From contig RDOA01000040.1 in assembly GCA_011364925.1 (NCBI GenBank), positions 1-34,773 of the forward strand: DNA of 34,773 nucleotides. Direction: 5' to 3'. Every line of letters begins with the position of its first letter. Position 1 is the stretch's first letter. Source of the stretch: Promethearchaeota archaeon. GTDB lineage: Archaea; Asgardarchaeota; Lokiarchaeia; Sigyniarchaeales; SOKP01. The notes under the pieces are model-generated. The model worked only from the letters and a program-made list of their open reading frames with translations, made no database searches and had not been told where the DNA came from. The position numbers and the translations under genes are program-made. Below, one piece after another: positions 2,465 through 25,492 of this stretch.

Positions 2465-4027
2465 CTATTTTAGTTTTCGAGTATTCACAATAAGATCTAG
2501 CATAAGAATTAGATGGTCATAGATCTTTTCTCTATAATCGGGACCAATTTTGAGAAATAGAACGGATACAACTTTTTCTTCTAAATCCTTATCGATTATA
2601 AATTCTTCCATTAATTGGGCGTAATATTTATCGTCAGTAACTCTCAACCCTATAAGAACTGCTCTTTTTTTTCTTAACTTCCTAATAATATTCATAAGCG
2701 TTTCTTTCCACTTGGGATCAATGTGTTCTTTTCCACGAGCATCGAAAATAATAAAAACTCCGTCAGAATTAGAGAGGTTAAAATCCTCGTACGTAAAACT
2801 ACTTAATATCAATCCATTCTTGTAGGGATATAATTGTTCATTAAAATCATCTTTAAGTTTTGAGAACTCACCTAATTTATCAATATCTATAATTGTCTGG
2901 AATCCAGGATTCCAATTCAAATTCTCAGTTATGAATGTTAACTCTAATATTACAAGCTCCTTCAAAGTTGAAAGTATGGATTCTGTTAACCTTTCTTGGA
3001 TCAAATCTTTTTCTTTTTCCTTACTTTTAATTATGTAATGATAAGCAATTAATTCAAAAGCTTCTTGAACATTACTTCCTGTGAGTGCACTCGTCTCTAT
3101 ATAGGAGATTTCAGATTCGGACAATGATTTAGCCAAAGCTTTTCCCTCTTCCGAAGTTACTACTCTTTTATCAGTTAAATCATCTTTATTCCCAACAAGA
3201 ACGATTGGAATGTCCTTTTCATCGATAAGCTCATTGAGTTCCTTGTACCATTCTTTTACTTTCTTAAACGAATCTCTGTTAGTAATATCAAACACAATAA
3301 AAGCAGCTTCCGCACCGTTGTAATAAATGCGTCGAAACCGTTTAAAGTATTGCTGAGCTCCAATATCCCAAAGTTGGAGTAAAAGCTCATTACCTTGAAA
3401 GTCAAAATTATGGGCAAAGATGTTTAAACCGATAGTTGCTCGATAATCCTGAGAAAATTTCCGTTCTACAAATTGACGGATGAGAGAAGTTTTTCCTACT
3501 TCGTGATTTCCTACTATTACAAATTTAAATGAATAACTTTGGCACTCATCGGTTTCAGATTTGCATATTGATTCTTTTAATTTAGCGTGCCTTTCTTTTT
3601 CATATTCAAAATCAGGAATTTCTAACTGGAGAACATCTCCCTCTCTTGAATTAAGTATCTGAGCGGATTTCTCTGCTAAAAAGTAGGTATAAGGTGCTAC
3701 TTTTTCTACCGAAGCCATACTATTAAAAATAATACTTAAAATTCGTTCTTCGTCAATAGTGATAAAAAGTAAACGATGCTCGTCCGTATCAAACGATGCG
3801 GTTCCAAACTTCTTGAAACTAAACTCATTTCTTATCCTTTCTAAAACGGGGTTAATTAAAGTTGTTAATACCGAGACAATTTCTAAGTTGCTTTCGGTAT
3901 CTTTCCTTTTTTCTCCAGCAATTACTAAACCTTCATGATCTGATACAATAATTGCCTCGACTTCCGAAAATCTATCTAAAAAATTGTTTAGAATCTCTTT
4001 AAATAATTGTTGTCTGTTTACTAACAC
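2465..4027 (-). CDS. Roadblock-small GTPase fusion protein (paralogue A), divergent G3 motif
   Basis: 520 residues in three parts. Residues about 5-125 look like a Roadblock/LC7 (MglB-like) domain: VEAIIVSDHEGLVIAGEKR, then SVLTTLINPVLERI and FGTASFDT. Residues about 166-335 are a Ras-like GTPase: P-loop GNHEVGKTS (173-181), switch I Thr198 in YRATIG, G3 WDIGAQQ (220-226), G4 NKDD (280-283), G5 ETSALTG. The remainder (about 345-520) is an unnamed domain shared with the next gene and contains GVFIIFDARGKEHIDPKWKE. The Gly of the G3 DxxG motif is Ala224 here. The start is GTG at 4027, chosen because it aligns residue for residue with the paralogue's ATG; an AAGGT ribosome binding site precedes it. 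Roadblock domains usually bind or regulate GTPases, so an intramolecular regulator is plausible (inference). Confidence 0.85.
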   Translation of the reverse strand: MLVNRQQLFKEILNNFLDRFSEVEAIIVSDHEGLVIAGEKRKDTESNLEIVSVLTTLINPVLERIRNEFSFKKFGTASFDTDEHRLLFITIDEERILSIIFNSMASVEKVAPYTYFLAEKSAQILNSREGDVLQLEIPDFEYEKERHAKLKESICKSETDECQSYSFKFVIVGNHEVGKTSLIRQFVERKFSQDYRATIGLNIFAHNFDFQGNELLLQLWDIGAQQYFKRFRRIYYNGAEAAFIVFDITNRDSFKKVKEWYKELNELIDEKDIPIVLVGNKDDLTDKRVVTSEEGKALAKSLSESEISYIETSALTGSNVQEAFELIAYHYIIKSKEKEKDLIQERLTESILSTLKELVILELTFITENLNWNPGFQTIIDIDKLGEFSKLKDDFNEQLYPYKNGLILSSFTYEDFNLSNSDGVFIIFDARGKEHIDPKWKETLMNIIRKLRKKRAVLIGLRVTDDKYYAQLMEEFIIDKDLEEKVVSVLFLKIGPDYREKIYDHLILMLDLIVNTRKLK

Positions 4028-4144: not shown

Positions 4145-5719
4145 CTAATTATTTATCGAATTGAGTATAGTACTAAACATAACTTCAAGTTCATCATAGA
4201 TTTCCAAACGATACTCTAGTCCTATCTTAAAAAACAAAAGAGACACTACTTTTTTTTCCAAATATTCGTTAACATTAAATTCTTCCAATATATCTGACCA
4301 ATCGAGCTCTTCAGAAACTCTAATGCCTATTAGAATAAGTTTGTTCTCTTTTAATTCTTGTATAATATTAATTACCACTTCTTTCCATTTTGGATCTATG
4401 TGGTTTTTGTTTCTTGCATCAAAGATAATAAATACACCATCAGAATCTGCAACTTCTATATTGTCAAAAAGAAGATTCTTTATAAGTAATCCGTTAGAGT
4501 ATTTGTACAGTCTTTTTTCTTTATCGTCTAAGATTTTGTCGCACTCACACATATTATTTACTTCATTTAAGATTTGTAACCCTGGACTCCAAAAAGGGTT
4601 TTCCGTAATAAAAGTGATCTCTAACTTCTTAGTCTTATTCAAAATCGAATTCAGCTGATTCATAAGATTTTTTCTTAACTTTTTTTCTTCTCTTTCGTTG
4701 CTTAGCATTATGTAGTGATATGCTATAAGGCTAAACGCGTCTTCCACATTTTCACCCGTTAAAGCACTCGTCTCTATATATGAAAAATCGTTAGTAGCAT
4801 TTTGTTGAGAAAATTCATCTACTAACATTATTCCTTCTTTGTATTGGATTGTTCTGGAATCTGATAAATCTATTTTATTTCCTACTATGACTATAGGAAT
4901 ATTATTTTTCCCAATATGTTCCTTGAGTTCATTATACCACTTTTTTATATTCGAAAAAGAGTTCCTTTCACCCACATCAAAAACTATGAAAGCTGCTTGT
5001 GCTCCAATATAGTAAGTCTTTCGAAATCGTTTAAAATATTCTTGACCTCCCAAATCCCACAATAAAAAGTTCACCTCGTTTCCGTAGAAATCCATTGTAT
5101 GTGAGAGTACATTTAATCCAAGAGTAGAACGATAGTCAAGAGAAAATTTATTATCGACAAATCTTCTAACTATAGATGTCTTCCCTACGGCTTTATCTCC
5201 AACAATTATAAATTTGAATTTATAACTTCCTCCAGAATTTAAACGCATTTGATAAATTTGATCTTTCAATCGACCAGTTTCGCTCGTATCATCAATTTCA
5301 GTTCCAAAAATAGGTATATCAACTTGAATAATATCTTCTTCGCCAGCATTCATAATTTGAGCTGTCTTTTCGGCGAGAAAGTAAACATATGGGCTAATTT
5401 TATCTATAGAAGCTAAAGTATTTAACACAACGCTAAGAGTTGTATCATCGTCGATAGAAATAAAGAGTATTCGATTTTCCTCTGTGTCGAAACTCGCAGA
5501 TCCAAATTTTTTAAAAGCAAATTCCTCCTGAATTCTCTCGAGTACAGGATTTATTAGAGTGGTCAACACTGACACCAACTCCATATCAACGCTCGCTCTT
5601 TTTTGCCCACCAATGATAAAACCTTCACGATCAGAAGCAATAAGTGCATCTACATCGTCGTATTTCAGTAAGAATTTAGTAAATAGCTCATTGAAATACT
5701 GCTTTTTAATTAATGACAT
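4145..5719 (-). CDS. Roadblock-small GTPase fusion protein (paralogue B)
   Basis: 524 residues, same three-part layout as the gene at 2465-4027 and clearly a tandem duplicate. The Roadblock/LC7-like part covers residues about 5-125 (VDALIASDREGFIIGGQKR, FGSASFDTEENRILFISID). The Ras-like GTPase has P-loop GDKAVGKTS (174-182), Thr199 in switch I (YRSTLG), a fully canonical G3 WDLGGQE (221-227), G4 NKID (281-284) and G5 ETSALTG (316-322). The C-terminal domain (about 350-524) contains ITFITENPFWSPG and GVFIIFDARNKNHIDPKWKE. No lipidation cysteine or membrane segment is visible, so it is probably cytosolic or recruited through partners. The 117-base gap to the downstream paralogue could hold a separate promoter. 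Likely role: signalling switch with a built-in Roadblock; the partner is unknown. Confidence 0.87.
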   Translation of the reverse strand: MSLIKKQYFNELFTKFLLKYDDVDALIASDREGFIIGGQKRASVDMELVSVLTTLINPVLERIQEEFAFKKFGSASFDTEENRILFISIDDDTTLSVVLNTLASIDKISPYVYFLAEKTAQIMNAGEEDIIQVDIPIFGTEIDDTSETGRLKDQIYQMRLNSGGSYKFKFIIVGDKAVGKTSIVRRFVDNKFSLDYRSTLGLNVLSHTMDFYGNEVNFLLWDLGGQEYFKRFRKTYYIGAQAAFIVFDVGERNSFSNIKKWYNELKEHIGKNNIPIVIVGNKIDLSDSRTIQYKEGIMLVDEFSQQNATNDFSYIETSALTGENVEDAFSLIAYHYIMLSNEREEKKLRKNLMNQLNSILNKTKKLEITFITENPFWSPGLQILNEVNNMCECDKILDDKEKRLYKYSNGLLIKNLLFDNIEVADSDGVFIIFDARNKNHIDPKWKEVVINIIQELKENKLILIGIRVSEELDWSDILEEFNVNEYLEKKVVSLLFFKIGLEYRLEIYDELEVMFSTILNSINN

Positions 5720-11803: not shown

Positions 11804-12142
11804 TTAAACATCTGGAGCAGTCATTCCAATAAGCTTATATGCTTCAGCTAAATCTAAAGTCACTTCAACCTTAAACTTAAAGCCTTCAACCTCTCTTGCT
11901 ATAAACAAACTTTGCGCTGTAGCCGCAGCTAAAGCTTCTTTTTCTTTCCCTTTGCCTATCTGGCCGATACCTACAACCATGATGTTTCCATCCTCCGCTG
12001 ATAACACAAGAATACAAAGTGTCTTATCGACTGTAGGATCTGGAGGATTGTCTTTTAACCATTCGATATACATTTTTCCCGCTTTAGCAGCTTGTTCTGG
12101 AGGGAAATAATTGCGAGTAAAAAGTAAAGTAATATCAACCAC
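11804..12142 (-). CDS. Small uncharacterised protein, copy 1 of a local three-member family
   Basis: 112 residues, no family recognised. The order of predicted elements is strand (DITLLFTRNYF), helix (PEQAAKAGKMYIEWLK), strand (KTLCILVLSAE), strand (NIMVVGIGQIG), helix (KEALAAATAQSLFIAREVEG), strand (FKFKVEVTLDL), which fits a ferredoxin-like alpha/beta sandwich of the dimeric-barrel type (inference). Related copies lie at 12257-12577 and 13810-14139 on the same strand, sharing the Y-F/P-P start region, the KAGK-Y helix and a C-terminal APD/APE. The start is GTG at 12142: an in-frame TAA lies four codons upstream and no other start codon intervenes. There is no separate ribosome binding site, so the transcript may be leaderless. 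Confidence 0.75.
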   Translation of the reverse strand: MVDITLLFTRNYFPPEQAAKAGKMYIEWLKDNPPDPTVDKTLCILVLSAEDGNIMVVGIGQIGKGKEKEALAAATAQSLFIAREVEGFKFKVEVTLDLAEAYKLIGMTAPDV

Positions 12143-12256: not shown

Positions 12257-12577
12257 TTATTCCGGCGCTTCTATTCCCGCTATAGCAAGCGCTTCGTCAA
12301 AAGTTGACCAAACTCTTATAGTATATTCATATCCTTCAATACTAATGTATTCATATAAGAAACTAGACCAATATGTTAAAGCTTTTTCTAATTGTCCTTC
12401 CTTTACATCATAAATTGCCATTACGACAATTCCATTTTCATTTGTAGTAACTGGAGCACAGAGTTGGACAGCCAAATCCTCTCTTTCGGGGTATTTATCT
12501 CTTGTTTTTACCCAAATTTTGACAACTTCTAACTGTTGATGACTTGGGTATTGCATTTTAGTAATAATATAGGGCAT
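12257..12577 (-). CDS. Small uncharacterised protein, copy 2 of the local family
   Basis: 106 residues, no named family recognised. It aligns along its length with the copies at 11804 and 13810: YIITKMQYPSHQQLEVVKIW replaces ITLLFTRNYFPPEQAAKAGK, and it ends IAGIEAPE where the others end IGMTAPDV and VGLSAPDV. This is the most divergent copy; the KAGKxY part of the first helix is lost and the D-rich loop differs (REDLAVQLCAPVTTNENG). The same strand-helix-strand-strand-helix-strand order can be drawn. The ATG start fits the paralogue alignment. Downstream T-rich sequence on the minus strand (12243-12230) may terminate it. Function unknown; a ligand-binding or dimer-forming role is only a guess. 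Confidence 0.72.
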   Translation of the reverse strand: MPYIITKMQYPSHQQLEVVKIWVKTRDKYPEREDLAVQLCAPVTTNENGIVVMAIYDVKEGQLEKALTYWSSFLYEYISIEGYEYTIRVWSTFDEALAIAGIEAPE

Positions 12578-13809: not shown

Positions 13810-14139
13810 CTAAACATCTGGAGCCGAGAGCCCTACAAGCGGCATTGCTTCAGGTAAGTCATAATATATATCCATTGACATTTTAATATCCTCGACACCT
13901 TCAGCTAGGACAAGCAATCTCTTCGATGTGAGATCCATAGCCTCTTTGACTTTTCCCTCCTTAACAGAAGATATTGCGATTGCGTGCAATCCTTCTTTTT
14001 CTAATTTAACACCGGATAATAATATAGGTTTACTCACTGATCGATCTGCTGGGAATTTCTTCATAGCTTCAAGATAGGCTTTACCAGCTTTCTCTGCCTG
14101 TGAAGCGGGATACCAAGTTTGAGTTATAATTAATACCAT
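13810..14139 (-). CDS. Small uncharacterised protein, copy 3 of the local family
   Basis: 109 residues, closest to copy 1 (11804). Shared parts are ITQTWYPASQAEKAGKAYLE in the first strand and helix, a K-P-x-L-L-S strand, GLHAIAISSVKEGKVKEAMD in the middle, and the end PLVGLSAPDV. The start was set at the internal ATG at 14139 (MVLIITQTWYP) rather than the upstream ATG at 14208, because all three copies then start at the same point and the extra 23 residues look like translated leader; a GGAAG ribosome binding site lies before it. Family function unknown. Confidence 0.75.
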   Translation of the reverse strand: MVLIITQTWYPASQAEKAGKAYLEAMKKFPADRSVSKPILLSGVKLEKEGLHAIAISSVKEGKVKEAMDLTSKRLLVLAEGVEDIKMSMDIYYDLPEAMPLVGLSAPDV

Positions 14140-14275
14140 ATAATTCACTTCCTTTTTAATTATATATAATACCTTGAAAGGGATTCTGGTTTCTAAAATT
14201 AGAAACACGATAAATAGAAAGCACTTTAATTTAAATTTTTACATTTTTATCAATTTGCTAAATAAGGTGAAAATT

Positions 14276-20233: not shown

Positions 20234-21130
20234 TTATAGTAGATTACTTGCGTATTGACCTACTAAATATTCAATTTTTGATGAGTCGTATTCTGCCTTC
20301 TCAATTTCTGGACACATATGTTCGAGATGATGAAGCAACTCACTCAAACCGTCTTCTGCTTCTTGGATGTTACCTGAATCAGAATCACTCAAAACAATTG
20401 AGCCCATTAAATTCTTAGATCGTTTGAATATTATTAGATGCCCACCCATTTTAAGTTGATTTAAGTCAGTATTGAAGGATTCCCTTATAAAGCTATTAAT
20501 CGCTGCAAATAACCCTCCCTGGAGGATATCTTGGTTGCTAGACGATGTTAACGGAATACCACCCTGATCAAATACCGTGATTGCTTTAGGACTAATCCTC
20601 TTTTTCAGATGTTTACCGGTCAATTTGTAATATATTTTCATAAACGCTTTTACAATACCGAATCCTGTTCTGCATGAAATTGGGATAATTTCAAAAGATG
20701 GTAATTTTTTCAAGTCTAACGCATCAATTATCTCCCCTATTGAGGCAACGGGTTGAAGATCATATTTATTTGCTAAAACAATCAATGGTTTTTTCTTAAA
20801 TACAGCTGCCAATCTCCACAATTCATCTTTAGCTTCTGAAAATCTTTCTCTCGCATAAGCATCAATCATAAATATAACACACTCTGCTTCGGATGCTTCT
20901 CCTAGCCAAAGTTCACGAAAATCAGATTGCCCGCCCATGTCCATAATATTAATTCTAATACCTTGAACCTCCATAGTATTTAATTCTTTTCCCATTGTTG
21001 GAGGGTGCTCAATAAATGTCCCACTTTGTAGGAACGAGACCATAGTTGTTTTACCAGCAGAATCTAGTCCACATATAACAACTTTCTTTTCTTTGGTAAA
21101 AACCCTTTTAATAATATCTTTCAGTGTCAT
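20234..21130 (-). CDS. Arf/Sar-like small GTPase with C-terminal longin/Roadblock-like domain
   Basis: 298 residues. Residues about 14-172 are an Arf-family GTPase: P-loop GLDSAGKT (21-28), switch I Thr45 in PPTMG, G3 DMGGQ (64-68, the Arf-type xGGQ), G4 NKYD (121-124) and SCRTGFG as G5. There is no N-terminal glycine for myristoylation and only a short amphipathic N-terminal helix (TLKDIIKRVFTKEKK), so any membrane recruitment would be through that helix or partners. Residues about 183-298 (AITVFDQGGIPLTS, LQGGLFAAINSFIRESF, HLIIFKRSKNLMGSIVLSD) have the strand-strand-helix-strand order and D-x-x-G-x-P-L start of longin/Roadblock-type domains. Likely role: membrane- or complex-associated switch. 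The C-terminal assignment is by pattern. Confidence 0.85.
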   Translation of the reverse strand: MTLKDIIKRVFTKEKKVVICGLDSAGKTTMVSFLQSGTFIEHPPTMGKELNTMEVQGIRINIMDMGGQSDFRELWLGEASEAECVIFMIDAYARERFSEAKDELWRLAAVFKKKPLIVLANKYDLQPVASIGEIIDALDLKKLPSFEIIPISCRTGFGIVKAFMKIYYKLTGKHLKKRISPKAITVFDQGGIPLTSSSNQDILQGGLFAAINSFIRESFNTDLNQLKMGGHLIIFKRSKNLMGSIVLSDSDSGNIQEAEDGLSELLHHLEHMCPEIEKAEYDSSKIEYLVGQYASNLL

Positions 21131-21338: not shown

Positions 21339-21995
21339 TTATTCCTTCATAACCAATTTAGTTATCCAAGTGTTCATAATTTTTTCTTCCTTTTTGGAAT
21401 CTGGCCAAATATAGCGTTCATAAAAACCTTTAGTACCTGCAAATAGAGTTACCATTGCCACAGTTCTAAAGCTTATAAAAATTATCGGCGTAGTTGGTCC
21501 TATAGTTTGACCTAACCCCCATATGAGGAAAAATAGGCCCATTCCTACAGCTAATCCGTTGTGTCTTCTTTTACCATCTCTAATAAGTATGTATGCTGAA
21601 CCATAACTAACAATCATAGCATATAATATAAATGGCATAGAAGAATTAACGAGTGCTCTTCCAAAAATAATATAAAAAGAGATAATAATCGGCAAGGTGT
21701 ATAGTTTGTTTAATTTTTTAAGGAAAAACATAAACTCTAATTGAATTATGAATAAAATATTTCCAATCAGAATTCCGATAGTAATATAACCAAACAAAAC
21801 TCCATCTAAGTTTAAATCACTAACATATGTTATTATGTCAACTATTGAGCGGAGTAGTACAGCTGCTATATATGCTGATATAGCAATTAATATTCGATTT
21901 TTGTTCTCCTTCCAATCCCTTAGAGTATTGCGCATCGACAGTATTCCTAATATGAAGTAAACGGATTCAATAACTAAATATGTCCATTCAACCAT
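21339..21995 (-). CDS. Polytopic membrane protein (about seven helices), last gene of a coupled cassette
   Basis: 218 residues; no family recognised. Hydrophobic segments lie at about 4-22, 33-55, 66-90, 98-112, 118-136, 147-165 and 170-185, with a positively charged C-terminal tail (FYERYIWPDSKKEEKIMNTW). Seven helices would place the N-terminus outside and the tail in the cytoplasm. The ATG is the first base after the stop of the upstream membrane-protein gene, so translation is almost certainly coupled. Size and topology match its upstream neighbour; whether they are paralogues needs an alignment. There are no obvious transporter or enzyme motifs. Confidence 0.8.
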   Translation of the reverse strand: MVEWTYLVIESVYFILGILSMRNTLRDWKENKNRILIAISAYIAAVLLRSIVDIITYVSDLNLDGVLFGYITIGILIGNILFIIQLEFMFFLKKLNKLYTLPIIISFYIIFGRALVNSSMPFILYAMIVSYGSAYILIRDGKRRHNGLAVGMGLFFLIWGLGQTIGPTTPIIFISFRTVAMVTLFAGTKGFYERYIWPDSKKEEKIMNTWITKLVMKE

Positions 21996-22658
21996 TTATT
22001 TCCCACCCTCCTTAAATACTCTAAAATATCCAAGAGAAAAGACTAAGATGAACGCACTATAAACTAGTATTGAAATTTGAGTAACCCAATGATTAAGGGT
22101 AGCATCTCCAAAATCAATAGCTATAGTCACAAAAGCTATTGTAAAAAAGATTGCTAAACCAAGAGCCCCATTGTCTTTTACTCGAATCCCTGTAACATAT
22201 AAAAAAATAACACCAGCTAAACCTGTAATAATAATATACATTTCAAGCCAAGCATCATAGCCTGTCAAAAAGAAAAAAACGATCATCCCTCCATAAAAGA
22301 ATAAAGCTGAATATTGTAAAGATTCCCATCGATACGCAAAGAAAATCATTGTTAAACCAAAGGTAACCATGGTTCCAATTAAAAAACCGTAAATATTAAA
22401 ATTGGTTATTCCACTACCGAACCACTCGTCCAATAGAGTCAATCCTGGCATATATTCTAATATTAATTCTATTATCCCAAGAACAGAAAAACTAAAAAAA
22501 ACTCCAAAGATTAACACTCTAATTGGATTGTATTTTCCTGTGGCTTTCTTTTGTTTTAGTAGCTTTCTCCCTAAAATAAAAGTAGCAAATGGAATTAGGA
22601 GGCCATCCAAAAAAAGCCCGAGTTGCGTTATGATATAATCAATTTGTGTGATATCCAT
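21996..22658 (-). CDS. Polytopic membrane protein (about seven helices), middle gene of the cassette
   Basis: 220 residues; no family recognised. Hydrophobic segments occur at about 13-31, 46-66, 87-107, 112-130, 135-155, 163-183 and 192-212, with basic loops (GRKLLKQKKATGKYNPIR) on one side. Its start overlaps the stop of the upstream gene by one base (TAATG at 22660-22656) and its stop abuts the start of the next gene, so the three genes form one translation-coupled unit. The two membrane proteins probably form a complex, with the 164-residue soluble protein as cytoplasmic partner (inference). Confidence 0.8.
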   Translation of the reverse strand: MDITQIDYIITQLGLFLDGLLIPFATFILGRKLLKQKKATGKYNPIRVLIFGVFFSFSVLGIIELILEYMPGLTLLDEWFGSGITNFNIYGFLIGTMVTFGLTMIFFAYRWESLQYSALFFYGGMIVFFFLTGYDAWLEMYIIITGLAGVIFLYVTGIRVKDNGALGLAIFFTIAFVTIAIDFGDATLNHWVTQISILVYSAFILVFSLGYFRVFKEGGK

Positions 22659-23152
22659 TAAAAGAAACTCCCCTTTAAATCTGGTTTTTGTTTTAAAACT
22701 TCTGCTTTAATTTCTTTGAAAATTCTTGAAAAATCAATCAGTAGATCCTTGATGTATATATCTTCTTCATTATTAATTCCCTCATATATAGCTTTATGAT
22801 ATTCCGTAAGAATATCTTCTTTTAGCATTCCATTTTCATCTAACTTGTCGACTAAAGCTTTTAAAACCGGCTTGTATACTTCAACTTTCTCCCGTTTATG
22901 TAGTAGAACTGAGAATGAAAATAGATCATCTCTAGAAGCTAACTGGTGAACTTTAAAGACATAAGATAGAACTTGGTATTTCTTATAGCGATCCTCGTAA
23001 AAATCTCCGACTTTAGCTCCTACAGGAAAACATGAGTTAAGGATGCCTTCCTCGTCTCCAATGCCACTCACCGAAGGAAATGAGCTTAAAATTTCCGGAT
23101 TACTCCCTACAAAACCACCAAGTTTTGCAAGAATTGCGTAATCGCTCGCCAT
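22658..23152 (-). CDS. Soluble longin/DENN-like protein, first gene of the cassette
   Basis: 164 residues, no signal peptide. The pattern PEILSSFPSVSG ... SCFPVGAKVGDF ... YQVLSYVFKVHQL ... DDLFSFSVLLHKRE ... VYKPVLKALVDKLDENG resembles the strand order and FPxG/SFSVLL signatures of longin-fold domains at the N-terminus of DENN-type and Nprl2/folliculin-type proteins; this is my reading, not a database hit. The C-terminal third is helical (IYIKDLLIDFSRIFKEIKAE). It starts a three-gene coupled unit with two polytopic membrane proteins. In eukaryotes such domains act on small GTPases at membranes; the Arf-like GTPase gene lies directly beyond the cassette. Function here is unproven. Confidence 0.78.
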   Translation of the reverse strand: MASDYAILAKLGGFVGSNPEILSSFPSVSGIGDEEGILNSCFPVGAKVGDFYEDRYKKYQVLSYVFKVHQLASRDDLFSFSVLLHKREKVEVYKPVLKALVDKLDENGMLKEDILTEYHKAIYEGINNEEDIYIKDLLIDFSRIFKEIKAEVLKQKPDLKGSFF

Positions 23153-23408: not shown

Positions 23409-24674
23409 CTAGAAACTCATTGCTTTTAGGAATTTTGGCCATAAAGTCATTTTTGAGATTACGGGTATGGCTGCAAAAAGTTGTTCGCCTACCCATCTAT
23501 CGTAGTCAGTATTGTGTGTTGATAAATCTTGGTTAATGTGTGCCTCGTAAATGTATTGTCGCACGGTCTTATTTGTATTTAAAAGATTAGTATACGCATT
23601 CCACAATGTCTTGCTTGAAGCACTCTCATTATAGAAAAGGTATTCACAGGCATTACCATTTCTAAAATAAGTAAACAAAACTCGGGCAACCTCGTCATCA
23701 TATTTCTTTAACTCAGTCTTTGTAAAATTAGAATTGCCTTCAAGTAGAGAATTCAGCAAGGTTGCAGCAATATGAGCACTCGCTAATCCACACAAGATGC
23801 CTTCATAAAAGAACGCAGTAACTAATCCGGCTGCTTCTCCTAGTACGATAACTCGATCTTTTGAAAAGGAGCTAATTGGGTGCTTCGAAATTCCTCCAGA
23901 AACACATGGTAAATTTTCATCCCATTTTATTCCTTTCATAAATGGTTGAATTTTTTGATAGTTTTTGAGAATTCTTATTAGCTTTTCCCTAAGTTCTGGG
24001 GGACTTTCTCGATTCCCTAAGTAACCCGTTGCAATTCTTCCTTTTCCAACATTAAAGAAAAAAGGTCCGTTCTGGCTTATATTGTGATTTAAATGAAACA
24101 TATATTGGAAACTAAAATTTTCATTTAGGATAGATTCATCTGCATAAATATTAGTATAAATTCCCATATAAGATTCGGGAGTTTCAAAACCAAGGGATTT
24201 TTGTAAAGGGAAACCTCGAGAACCTGTGGCTAAAACCAAAAGTTTAGTAGTAAACGATTCCCCTTTATTATTAACAACTTCAATATAATCTGTATGACGG
24301 ACGATTTTTGTAATATTTTCGTTAAATCTGGTTATTCCTCCTTGGTCTTTGAACTTATCGATGAGTTTTTGGAGTAAAATTTCTGTATGCGATATTTTAC
24401 CTAATGGCGCTCCAAATTCTTTAGAGCTTAATAAGCCGTTATATTTTTCACTTTTGTAATTTAGTTGAATAAATGGTCGTGGAAATATCGTATCATCGTT
24501 CCAAAAAACATCATCTACAAATGGTTTATTATGCTCAGCAAATATGTTAGTTCTAACTGGAATTTCTCGATCGTAGTCTTGAGCTTCTATGAGAAGCGTT
24601 TTTGCGTATTTTGAAGTTTTGTAGGCGAAAGATGTACCAGAAATGCCCGCGCCAATAACAATAAAATCATACAT
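23409..24674 (-). CDS. FAD-dependent oxidoreductase, geranylgeranyl reductase / FixC-like family
   Basis: 421 residues. The N-terminal Rossmann motif DFIVIGAGISGTSFAYKTSK (GxGxxG at about 8-13) binds the ADP part of FAD, ending with the acidic residue in LLIEAQ. LVLATGSRG is the second FAD contact, and DRVIVLGEAAGLVTAFFYEGILCGLASA is the typical family motif near the isoalloxazine, with GEAAG in place of GDAAG. Family members in archaea saturate the geranylgeranyl chains of membrane lipids; others handle quinones or small aromatics. The C-terminal domain (about 300-421) shows no cluster-binding cysteines. Lipid reductase is the leading guess, not proven. The 256-base gap before the next upstream gene holds no visible gene. 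Confidence 0.85.
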   Translation of the reverse strand: MYDFIVIGAGISGTSFAYKTSKYAKTLLIEAQDYDREIPVRTNIFAEHNKPFVDDVFWNDDTIFPRPFIQLNYKSEKYNGLLSSKEFGAPLGKISHTEILLQKLIDKFKDQGGITRFNENITKIVRHTDYIEVVNNKGESFTTKLLVLATGSRGFPLQKSLGFETPESYMGIYTNIYADESILNENFSFQYMFHLNHNISQNGPFFFNVGKGRIATGYLGNRESPPELREKLIRILKNYQKIQPFMKGIKWDENLPCVSGGISKHPISSFSKDRVIVLGEAAGLVTAFFYEGILCGLASAHIAATLLNSLLEGNSNFTKTELKKYDDEVARVLFTYFRNGNACEYLFYNESASSKTLWNAYTNLLNTNKTVRQYIYEAHINQDLSTHNTDYDRWVGEQLFAAIPVISKMTLWPKFLKAMSF

Positions 24675-24739: not shown

Positions 24740-25492
24740 TTAAATTATGTTTTGGATTACTCTTGTAATCTTTGCTAAATTAACTTCAGCCATACCTAAG
24801 GGGACAGAAGAACCGAATAACACTACAATTAGTAATGGATCCAATTTCCACGGAATATTTATGATTCTGGAAAATACTTTCTCGTCATTTTCTAAACTGT
24901 AGAAAGTTAAGGCGTATTCGTTGGCTACAATATGTCTAATTTCTAACTCTTTTAAAGAAGACAAAAGGATTTCGTATGGTAATGATGAGAAAATTACCTT
25001 TCCGTTGATTGAAAACAATGCGGCCCCTAAAATCTCGTTTTCAAAAACGAGTTTGTTAAAGAGATCAATAATCTTTTTGTACAACGGTTGACTTGACTCT
25101 AATTCCTCTTCCCCTGTAATGATTGATTCAATCTTTGCGTCAAATTCTGGGTTTTCGATAATTTGATATGGCTCAACTTCATTATTTGCGAGAAATTCTT
25201 TAAATTCACGAACGATGCTGATTAACCTAGATTCTATAAACAACAAGCTTGCGCTCGAATCAGCTAAGATCGCGAATATAAAATCCCCCTCTACTTTGAA
25301 GGCAAACCTAAAACCACCCATTTCGAGAATTTCTGGGGTTTCTTTCGATATAACACTTTCAGAAAATGAAAAAATCGCGGAAAAGAAAGGCGTAATTAAA
25401 TTTGGTTCAATATTTTCAAAATCACTTGTGATATTTCTACTGTATAAACAAGCTCCCGCTTTATTTAGAATAAAAAGTGAGTGAATTTTCAT
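24740..25492 (-). CDS. Two-domain longin plus Roadblock-like protein
   Basis: 250 residues, no signal peptide. The N-terminal half opens with KIHSLFILNKAGACLYSRNI, the hallmark start of longin-type domains (strand, D/N-x-x-G turn, strand), followed by FAFKVEGDFIFAILADSSAS and a long helix (about 1-115). The second half (about 135-250) repeats the logic with ILGAALFSINGKVIFSSLPY and LIVVLFGSSVPLGMAEVNLA, as in Roadblock/LC7 proteins. Such domains pair with each other and with small GTPases; two GTPase genes of different types lie within 4 kb and 20 kb. There is no ribosome binding site, and a TATA-like TTTTTATAGC about 30 bases upstream suggests a leaderless transcript. The domain call is by pattern and moderately sure. 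Confidence 0.78.
   Translation of the reverse strand: MKIHSLFILNKAGACLYSRNITSDFENIEPNLITPFFSAIFSFSESVISKETPEILEMGGFRFAFKVEGDFIFAILADSSASLLFIESRLISIVREFKEFLANNEVEPYQIIENPEFDAKIESIITGEEELESSQPLYKKIIDLFNKLVFENEILGAALFSINGKVIFSSLPYEILLSSLKELEIRHIVANEYALTFYSLENDEKVFSRIINIPWKLDPLLIVVLFGSSVPLGMAEVNLAKITRVIQNII

Follow-up and report, generated by a model that had tools for sequence, protein, structure and literature searches.

How an Arf-family GTPase of an Asgard archaeon might be tied to its membrane is the question raised by contig RDOA01000040.1 of a Promethearchaeota archaeon (assembly GCA_011364925.1; Lokiarchaeia, Sigyniarchaeales), which we analyzed as a single window of 34,773 nucleotides. 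Lokiarchaea carry dozens of small GTPases and, to our knowledge, almost nothing is known of what these respond to or act upon. In this window, genes for a soluble protein (A) and two seven-helix membrane proteins (B and C) are followed by a gene for an Arf-family GTPase. Our findings give good support to a four-gene unit, and we consider it fairly probable that the unit constitutes one membrane switch, in which a seven-transmembrane (7TM) heterodimer of B and C senses or anchors and controls the Arf-type GTPase with the help of A.

All four genes lie on the reverse strand. Gene A (22658-23152) encodes a soluble protein of 164 amino acids (aa), B (21996-22658) and C (21339-21995) encode membrane proteins of 220 and 218 aa with seven helices each, and the GTPase gene (20234-21130; 298 aa) is the next gene after C on the same strand, 208 base pairs (bp) downstream. 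The overlapping and abutting junctions described in the initial annotation proved exact to the base. The stop of A and the start of B share one base in a TAATG junction (22656-22660, reverse strand), which points to translational coupling, and in a TAA/ATG junction (21993-21998, reverse strand) the stop of B (21998-21996) directly adjoins the start of C (21995-21993), leaving zero spacing at 21995/21996. Both downstream genes have a purine-rich, ribosome-binding-like site on the same strand, read directly from the sequence, namely GGGGAG within the end of A for B (22668-22673) and AAGGAGGG within the end of B for C (22006-22013).

We then examined how widely this arrangement is conserved. Profile searches with A, B and C covered 228 genomes of the Asgard phylum, all draft assemblies in which several loci stop at contig edges. 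The A family was present in 44 of them, and B was found at 30 loci in 26 genomes, all within the order of the window save for one marginal match in another family; a single-sequence search with B found it in 24 of 77 near relatives, and a pattern scan across named genomes gave just two records, both Lokiarchaeal ('Candidatus Lokiarchaeota archaeon'). Wherever the contig was long enough, B stood alongside A and C (28 of the 30 loci), confirming that the three-gene order is kept in other Asgard genomes, and A, B, C and the Arf gene occurred together in 24 of the 79 genomes of the order. Across 22 readable module copies, B and C were separated by -29 to +3 bp, and A and B by -4 to +9 bp in 19 copies and by 21-63 bp in three, most of these junctions falling between -8 and +9 bp; junctions this tight in nearly all copies indicate that the arrangement is more than chance. 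The GTPase gene moves with the set, since 16 copies read A-B-C-Arf and five read Arf-A-B-C, the latter with an Arf-A gap of 11-46 bp, while a single copy has a divergent Arf gene. Furthermore, the module occurs in tandem (L047) and in second copies (L038/L050), and its surroundings differ between genera and families.

The pattern of loss strengthened the link to the GTPase. The C-terminal domain of the module Arf was detected in 30 of the 79 genomes of the order, comprising all 24 module carriers and six others; five of these six had no G domain, the sixth (G062) held an Arf-A pair at a contig end, and within the 79 genomes every intact Arf that bears this C-terminal domain was accompanied by A. 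Three genomes preserve remnants at the syntenic site, which is flanked by the FAD and TPR genes: one (G010, L173) retains 17 aa from the start of A and 71 aa from the end of Arf, another (G014, L172) retains the Arf C-terminal domain alone, and a third (G038, L068) carries A fused to the Arf C-terminal domain. Judged from these remnants, A, B, C and the G domain were removed jointly, apparently by single deletions. We dismissed the fusion in G038 as 'Rosetta stone' support, because the deletions at the same site in G010 and G014 make it most simply a deletion product.

The GTPase, predicted at the outset as Arf-like, matched Pfam Arf at 6e-33, above the cut-off, and is the best Arf-family match in its genome (5e-33; 53 GTPase matches at 1e-10). 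Its G domain (20600-21130, reverse strand) contains GLDSAGKTT, PTMGKE, DMGGQ, NKYDL and SCRTG; the motifs GxxxxGKT, PTxG, DxGGQ and NKxD are all present and conserved in the A4 alignment, and the best PDB matches (8oun, 8oum and 8oul) are labelled GTP-binding protein or Arf GTPase. In a tree with 26 other Asgard GTPases and 12 Arfs of a parallel system described below, the module Arfs formed one clade (100/98). Arfs enter the membrane when GTP-bound, and an amphipathic N-terminus is expected of them; the N-terminal helix here is amphipathic, with a hydrophobic moment of about 0.65-0.69. Position 2 is Thr in the window and Gly in most relatives, Gly2 being the residue that serves lipid attachment in eukaryotes. 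The C-terminal domain (20234-20599, reverse strand) gave sub-threshold but repeated superfamily matches to the Fuz/MON1 and Intu/CCZ1 longins, LAMTOR3 and LAMTOR5. Its stand-alone relatives match Robl_LC7 and Fuz_longin_1 at 1e-4 to 5e-3, and one such relative follows C in two loci (L042, L048). These matches weakly suggest that the roadblock/longin-like domain of the module is the C-terminal part of the GTPase.

B and C each show seven hydrophobic segments, both in the single sequence and in family-averaged hydropathy. Structure prediction used the proteins of the window and of two related loci, and from six sequences AlphaFold2 gave a model of B with seven long helices (pLDDT 68.5, pTM 0.64); B and C are thus polytopic proteins of near-equal length and helix number, as had been proposed. 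The B and C profiles aligned in hhalign at 2.4e-9, better than reversed and locally shuffled decoy profiles, which were run because hhalign E-values between membrane proteins can be inflated; this profile comparison makes B and C paralogues. Odd loops hold 11-19 Lys and Arg residues and even loops 1-3 in each of the five 7TM profiles, a positive-charge distribution that indicates an N-out/C-in topology for B, C and their relatives.

Conservation in these proteins is concentrated on the inner side. It was higher on the cytosolic half of B (p=8e-12), C (3e-8) and the wider 7TM family T5 described below (2e-11), and inner loops exceeded outer loops when loops alone were compared (B 1e-9, C 1e-6, T5 8e-14); the former effect may be due in part to polar loop residues outscoring interchangeable hydrophobic ones, to which only the loop-to-loop comparison is immune. 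The most conserved sites are residues of the inner loops and tail, such as K32, N44, R47, R159 and K161-N163 in B and W28, K143-G147 and W210 in C. The cytosolic motifs of B read K-x-TGK-x-N..R and RVKDNGALGLAIF, and the conserved cytosolic tail of C reads ..KI..TWISKLV. The initial annotation could name no family for either protein, and searches of Pfam, NCBIfam and PDB profiles likewise matched B and C to no transporter or enzyme family; weak matches to Ycf9/PsbZ for C, and to Mim2 or TgpA_N for family members, were not consistent across members and were dismissed. In one family, C bears an extra C-terminal Cys/His domain that resembles a zinc finger, with CPVC/CPIC and C-E-H motifs (L055:8491-9468, L057:7385-8350, L052:1779-2855).

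The soluble protein A is conserved in the motifs RDDL, SNPE, IYEGIN and a C-terminal KGSF, and its family extends outside the class of the window, where homologues (A8) in families f19 and f24 aligned with the module profile in hhalign (A1-A8, 99.4 %, 3.5e-21). Its initial designation as longin/DENN-like was not borne out and stands unproven. A gave no Pfam, PDB-profile or uDENN match, a uDENN profile search of 21 genomes retrieved no A locus, a Pfam scan of 23+20 family members gave a single uDENN match (E 0.2), and the A profile scored below 2 % against Asgard longin profiles in hhalign. The AlphaFold2 model of A, built with two sequences (pLDDT 45.8), was too poor for use, and its uninformative fold search was ignored. 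A weak match to Proteasom_PSMB was inconsistent between members and was likewise dismissed.

Related sets occur elsewhere in the phylum. In f19 and f24, 14 of 17 loci have the order A homologue, Arf with a G domain alone, and a single 7TM protein of 270-326 aa, and the other three are without Arf. The Arfs of these loci form a clade of their own (97/97), which also includes three Arfs not labelled beforehand, two of which adjoin a 7TM gene of this type. The narrow 7TM profile of these loci (A5) had no significant hhalign match to B or C. The wider T5 family, comprising 7TM proteins of 240-280 aa at 59 loci across the phylum (L096-L154; for example L107:2996-4182, L102:2322-4394 and L108:3224-5188), matched C along its full length at 9e-9, with decoys no better than 3e-4; its genes sometimes stand two in tandem. 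A further C-like family, T6 (f25 and f10; L060-L064, L075), aligned with C at 2.8e-12, which beats the decoys, though one T6 decoy reached 6e-7; at all six of its loci, the gene directly before it encodes a soluble protein of 126-145 aa, which looks roadblock-like by eye and had no Pfam match. We examined 49 distant T5-like 7TM genes, and for 12 of them the gene directly upstream, on the same strand, is of the roadblock/longin type; this was so for 4 of 409 other genes at these loci and for 0 of 108 control-locus genes (Fisher 8e-10). Some of the remaining 7TM genes are close to genes for Ras- or Arf-like GTPases (L101, L111, L115). The pairing of a roadblock/longin gene with a T5 7TM gene is a possible general Asgard theme beyond the module.

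From these observations, we propose how the module may work. B and C would pair in the membrane, probably as a heterodimer, with their N-termini outside and their C-termini in the cytosol, and the pair would sense something outside or within the membrane, or else mark a membrane site. The conserved cytosolic loops of both proteins and the tail of C would offer A and the Arf C-terminal domain a face on which to dock, and in this physical complex B and C, via A and/or directly, would set the GDP- or GTP-bound state of the G domain; control would run from receptor to GTPase, with a signal and effectors as the putative ends of the chain. The initial annotation had suggested a membrane receptor for a small GTPase. 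Its link to the GTPase has strong support, and the putative receptor role of B and C would fit the N-out/C-in topology and the conserved cytosolic face seen in the sequences.

Other readings of the four genes have to be weighed against such a switch. That they are neighbours through inherited gene order alone, with no joint work, might be suspected within the genus of the window, where the whole region is syntenic (FAD, LONGIN250, TRX, TrmB and TPR genes), but the genes also stay together when rearranged to Arf-A-B-C and amid unrelated surroundings in other genera and families, and the tandem copies, the loss as one block and the independent A-Arf-7TM set in other classes speak against it as well. 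We therefore rejected inherited synteny as the whole explanation, since the rearranged, tandem and co-lost copies largely refute it, and what is left of this idea is highly improbable. It is also conceivable, if unlikely, that B and C serve Arf-driven membrane shaping, such as of vesicles or protrusions, as anchors in the membrane or as receptors for cargo, and recruit Arf and A to a site without sensing anything. Such a role would suit a bona fide Arf whose N-terminal helix is amphipathic, and likewise the conserved cytosolic face of B and C; in haloarchaea, the operon-encoded Arf-like set of ArvA, ArvB and ArvC drives extracellular vesicles (PMC10927574), and Asgard ArfRs go to membranes when GTP-bound (PMC12554972). 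On the other hand, the ArvB and ArvC families (DUF2073 and DUF2072) are not present here, the unit lacks any protein of coat or curvature type, and for a variable outer side ligand sensing is as good a fit as cargo.

That B and C act as a permease or channel for small molecules, with Arf regulating its activity or its delivery to the membrane, appears to us distinctly improbable. B and C are orphan polytopic proteins, a solo relative of B accompanies a methyltransferase-corrinoid pair (G159/G160), and T5 has a sub-threshold NCBIfam match to 'MAB_1171c family putative transporter' (E 0.0015-0.012, with scores of 15-18 where the cut-off is 100); Pfam and PDB profiles, however, gave no transporter match, and the most conserved residues lie in the cytosolic loops and tail, outside the membrane core. 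A constant inner partner combined with a variable outer side fits a receptor or anchor better than a permease. A more specific form of the receptor idea, in which B and C are an archaeal receptor resembling G protein-coupled receptors (GPCRs), that is, a ligand-sensing 7TM dimer that drives Arf nucleotide exchange and is possibly homologous to GPCRs, is in our view doubtful. Foldseek placed GPCRs in all of the top 50 PDB matches of the B model (best ADGRL3, E 0.12, prob 1.00, TM 0.55, rmsd 6.0). GPCRs are heavily over-represented in the PDB, and because of this and the medium confidence of the B model we treat the result as a lead only; Pfam and PDB profiles matched neither B nor C to a GPCR sequence family.

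Several observations weigh against the proposed switch or its receptor form, in addition to the polar-residue effect on cytosolic conservation noted above. None of the Foldseek matches of B to GPCRs was significant (E<=0.001). Most genomes of the order lack the module, which indicates an accessory function. In the genus of the window, C and Arf are 180-280 bp apart, so that an own promoter for Arf is possible there. No GTPase-machinery gene lies directly upstream of 37 of the 49 T5-like 7TM genes, and the solo B relative, seen in two genomes of one genus, stands without A or Arf after a corrinoid protein and a URO-D-type methyltransferase. In the two loci concerned (L058:5533-8143, L059:3255-5847), the corrinoid protein is B12-binding, and the solo 7TM protein might sense or carry a methylated compound.

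Three known systems are the nearest functional analogues. The actinobacterial conservons (cvnABCD), also named 'actinobacterial G protein systems', for which a likeness to G protein-coupled regulation has been proposed (PMC13343842; Komatsu et al. 2006 cited there), likewise combine a membrane sensor, roadblock-type small regulators and a small GTPase in an operon with recurrent copies. In conservons, however, CvnA is histidine-kinase-like, CvnB is an MglB-type roadblock protein, CvnC is a domain of unknown function and CvnD is a Ras-like GTPase, whereas the module has a 7TM pair without a kinase domain, an Arf-family GTPase with its own roadblock/longin-like domain and an A protein unrelated to named families; profile searches found no kinase domain in B or C, left A unmatched and placed the GTPase in the Arf family. 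Eukaryotic GPCR-heterotrimeric G protein systems share the seven helices with N-out/C-in topology, and the top 50 Foldseek matches of the B model are all GPCRs, but the module differs in its lack of a GPCR sequence match, Foldseek E-values of 0.1 or worse, very short loops and two paralogous 7TM proteins, and it has neither G-beta/gamma nor the G-alpha helical insert. ArvABC is an archaeal operon of an Arf-like GTPase with an amphipathic N-terminal helix and two small partners (PMC10927574); it differs in that ArvB is DUF2073 and ArvC a zinc ribbon (DUF2072), families to which A, B and C had no Pfam match, in its GTPase domain layout and in that no 7TM pair is described for it.

The module Arf is of the kind of the Asgard ArfR GTPases (Vargova et al. 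2025, cited in PMC12554972), and it would share the GTPase-roadblock/longin fusion known from Asgard archaea (PMC10933270); GTPase genes of MK-D1 are reported generally not to be in operons with roadblock/longin regulators (PMC10933270), and the open-licence papers on ArfRs describe no operon that includes 7TM proteins. Similarly, we found no description of an Asgard 7TM-GTPase system in the open-licence literature, and one may exist elsewhere. We rate the module as categorically new because conservons, GPCR systems and ArvABC each differ from it in at least one tested defining feature, while its general logic of a membrane sensor plus a small GTPase is, by analogy, not without parallels.

The window holds further features around the module. 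Upstream of it lie a gene for a geranylgeranyl-reductase-like flavoprotein (23409-24674) and LONGIN250 (24740-25492, reverse strand), which encodes 250 aa with a weak sybindin/longin match and is found upstream of the module in those copies of the genus whose contig extends there. Two tandem paralogues of about 520 aa (2465-4027 and 4145-5719, reverse strand), 50 % identical, each contain an Arf/Rag-like GTP-binding domain, and three small proteins (11804-12142, 12257-12577 and 13810-14208, reverse strand) with a mutual identity of 26-33 % form a local paralogous set.

The pairing of a membrane receptor with a GTPase is best known from eukaryotic receptors and G proteins, and G-alpha is thought to descend from the GTPase family used here, Arf. 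Among the GTPases of Lokiarchaea, the module represents a conserved exception, which names membrane proteins and a soluble partner of a genuine Arf-family GTPase. Confirmation would place the coupling of 7TM proteins with Arf-type GTPases before the origin of eukaryotes, or else reveal a parallel origin among the archaea related to them; and if the GPCR-like reading were true, the module would be a receptor-G protein system of a prokaryote, found in the archaeal lineage nearest to eukaryotes.
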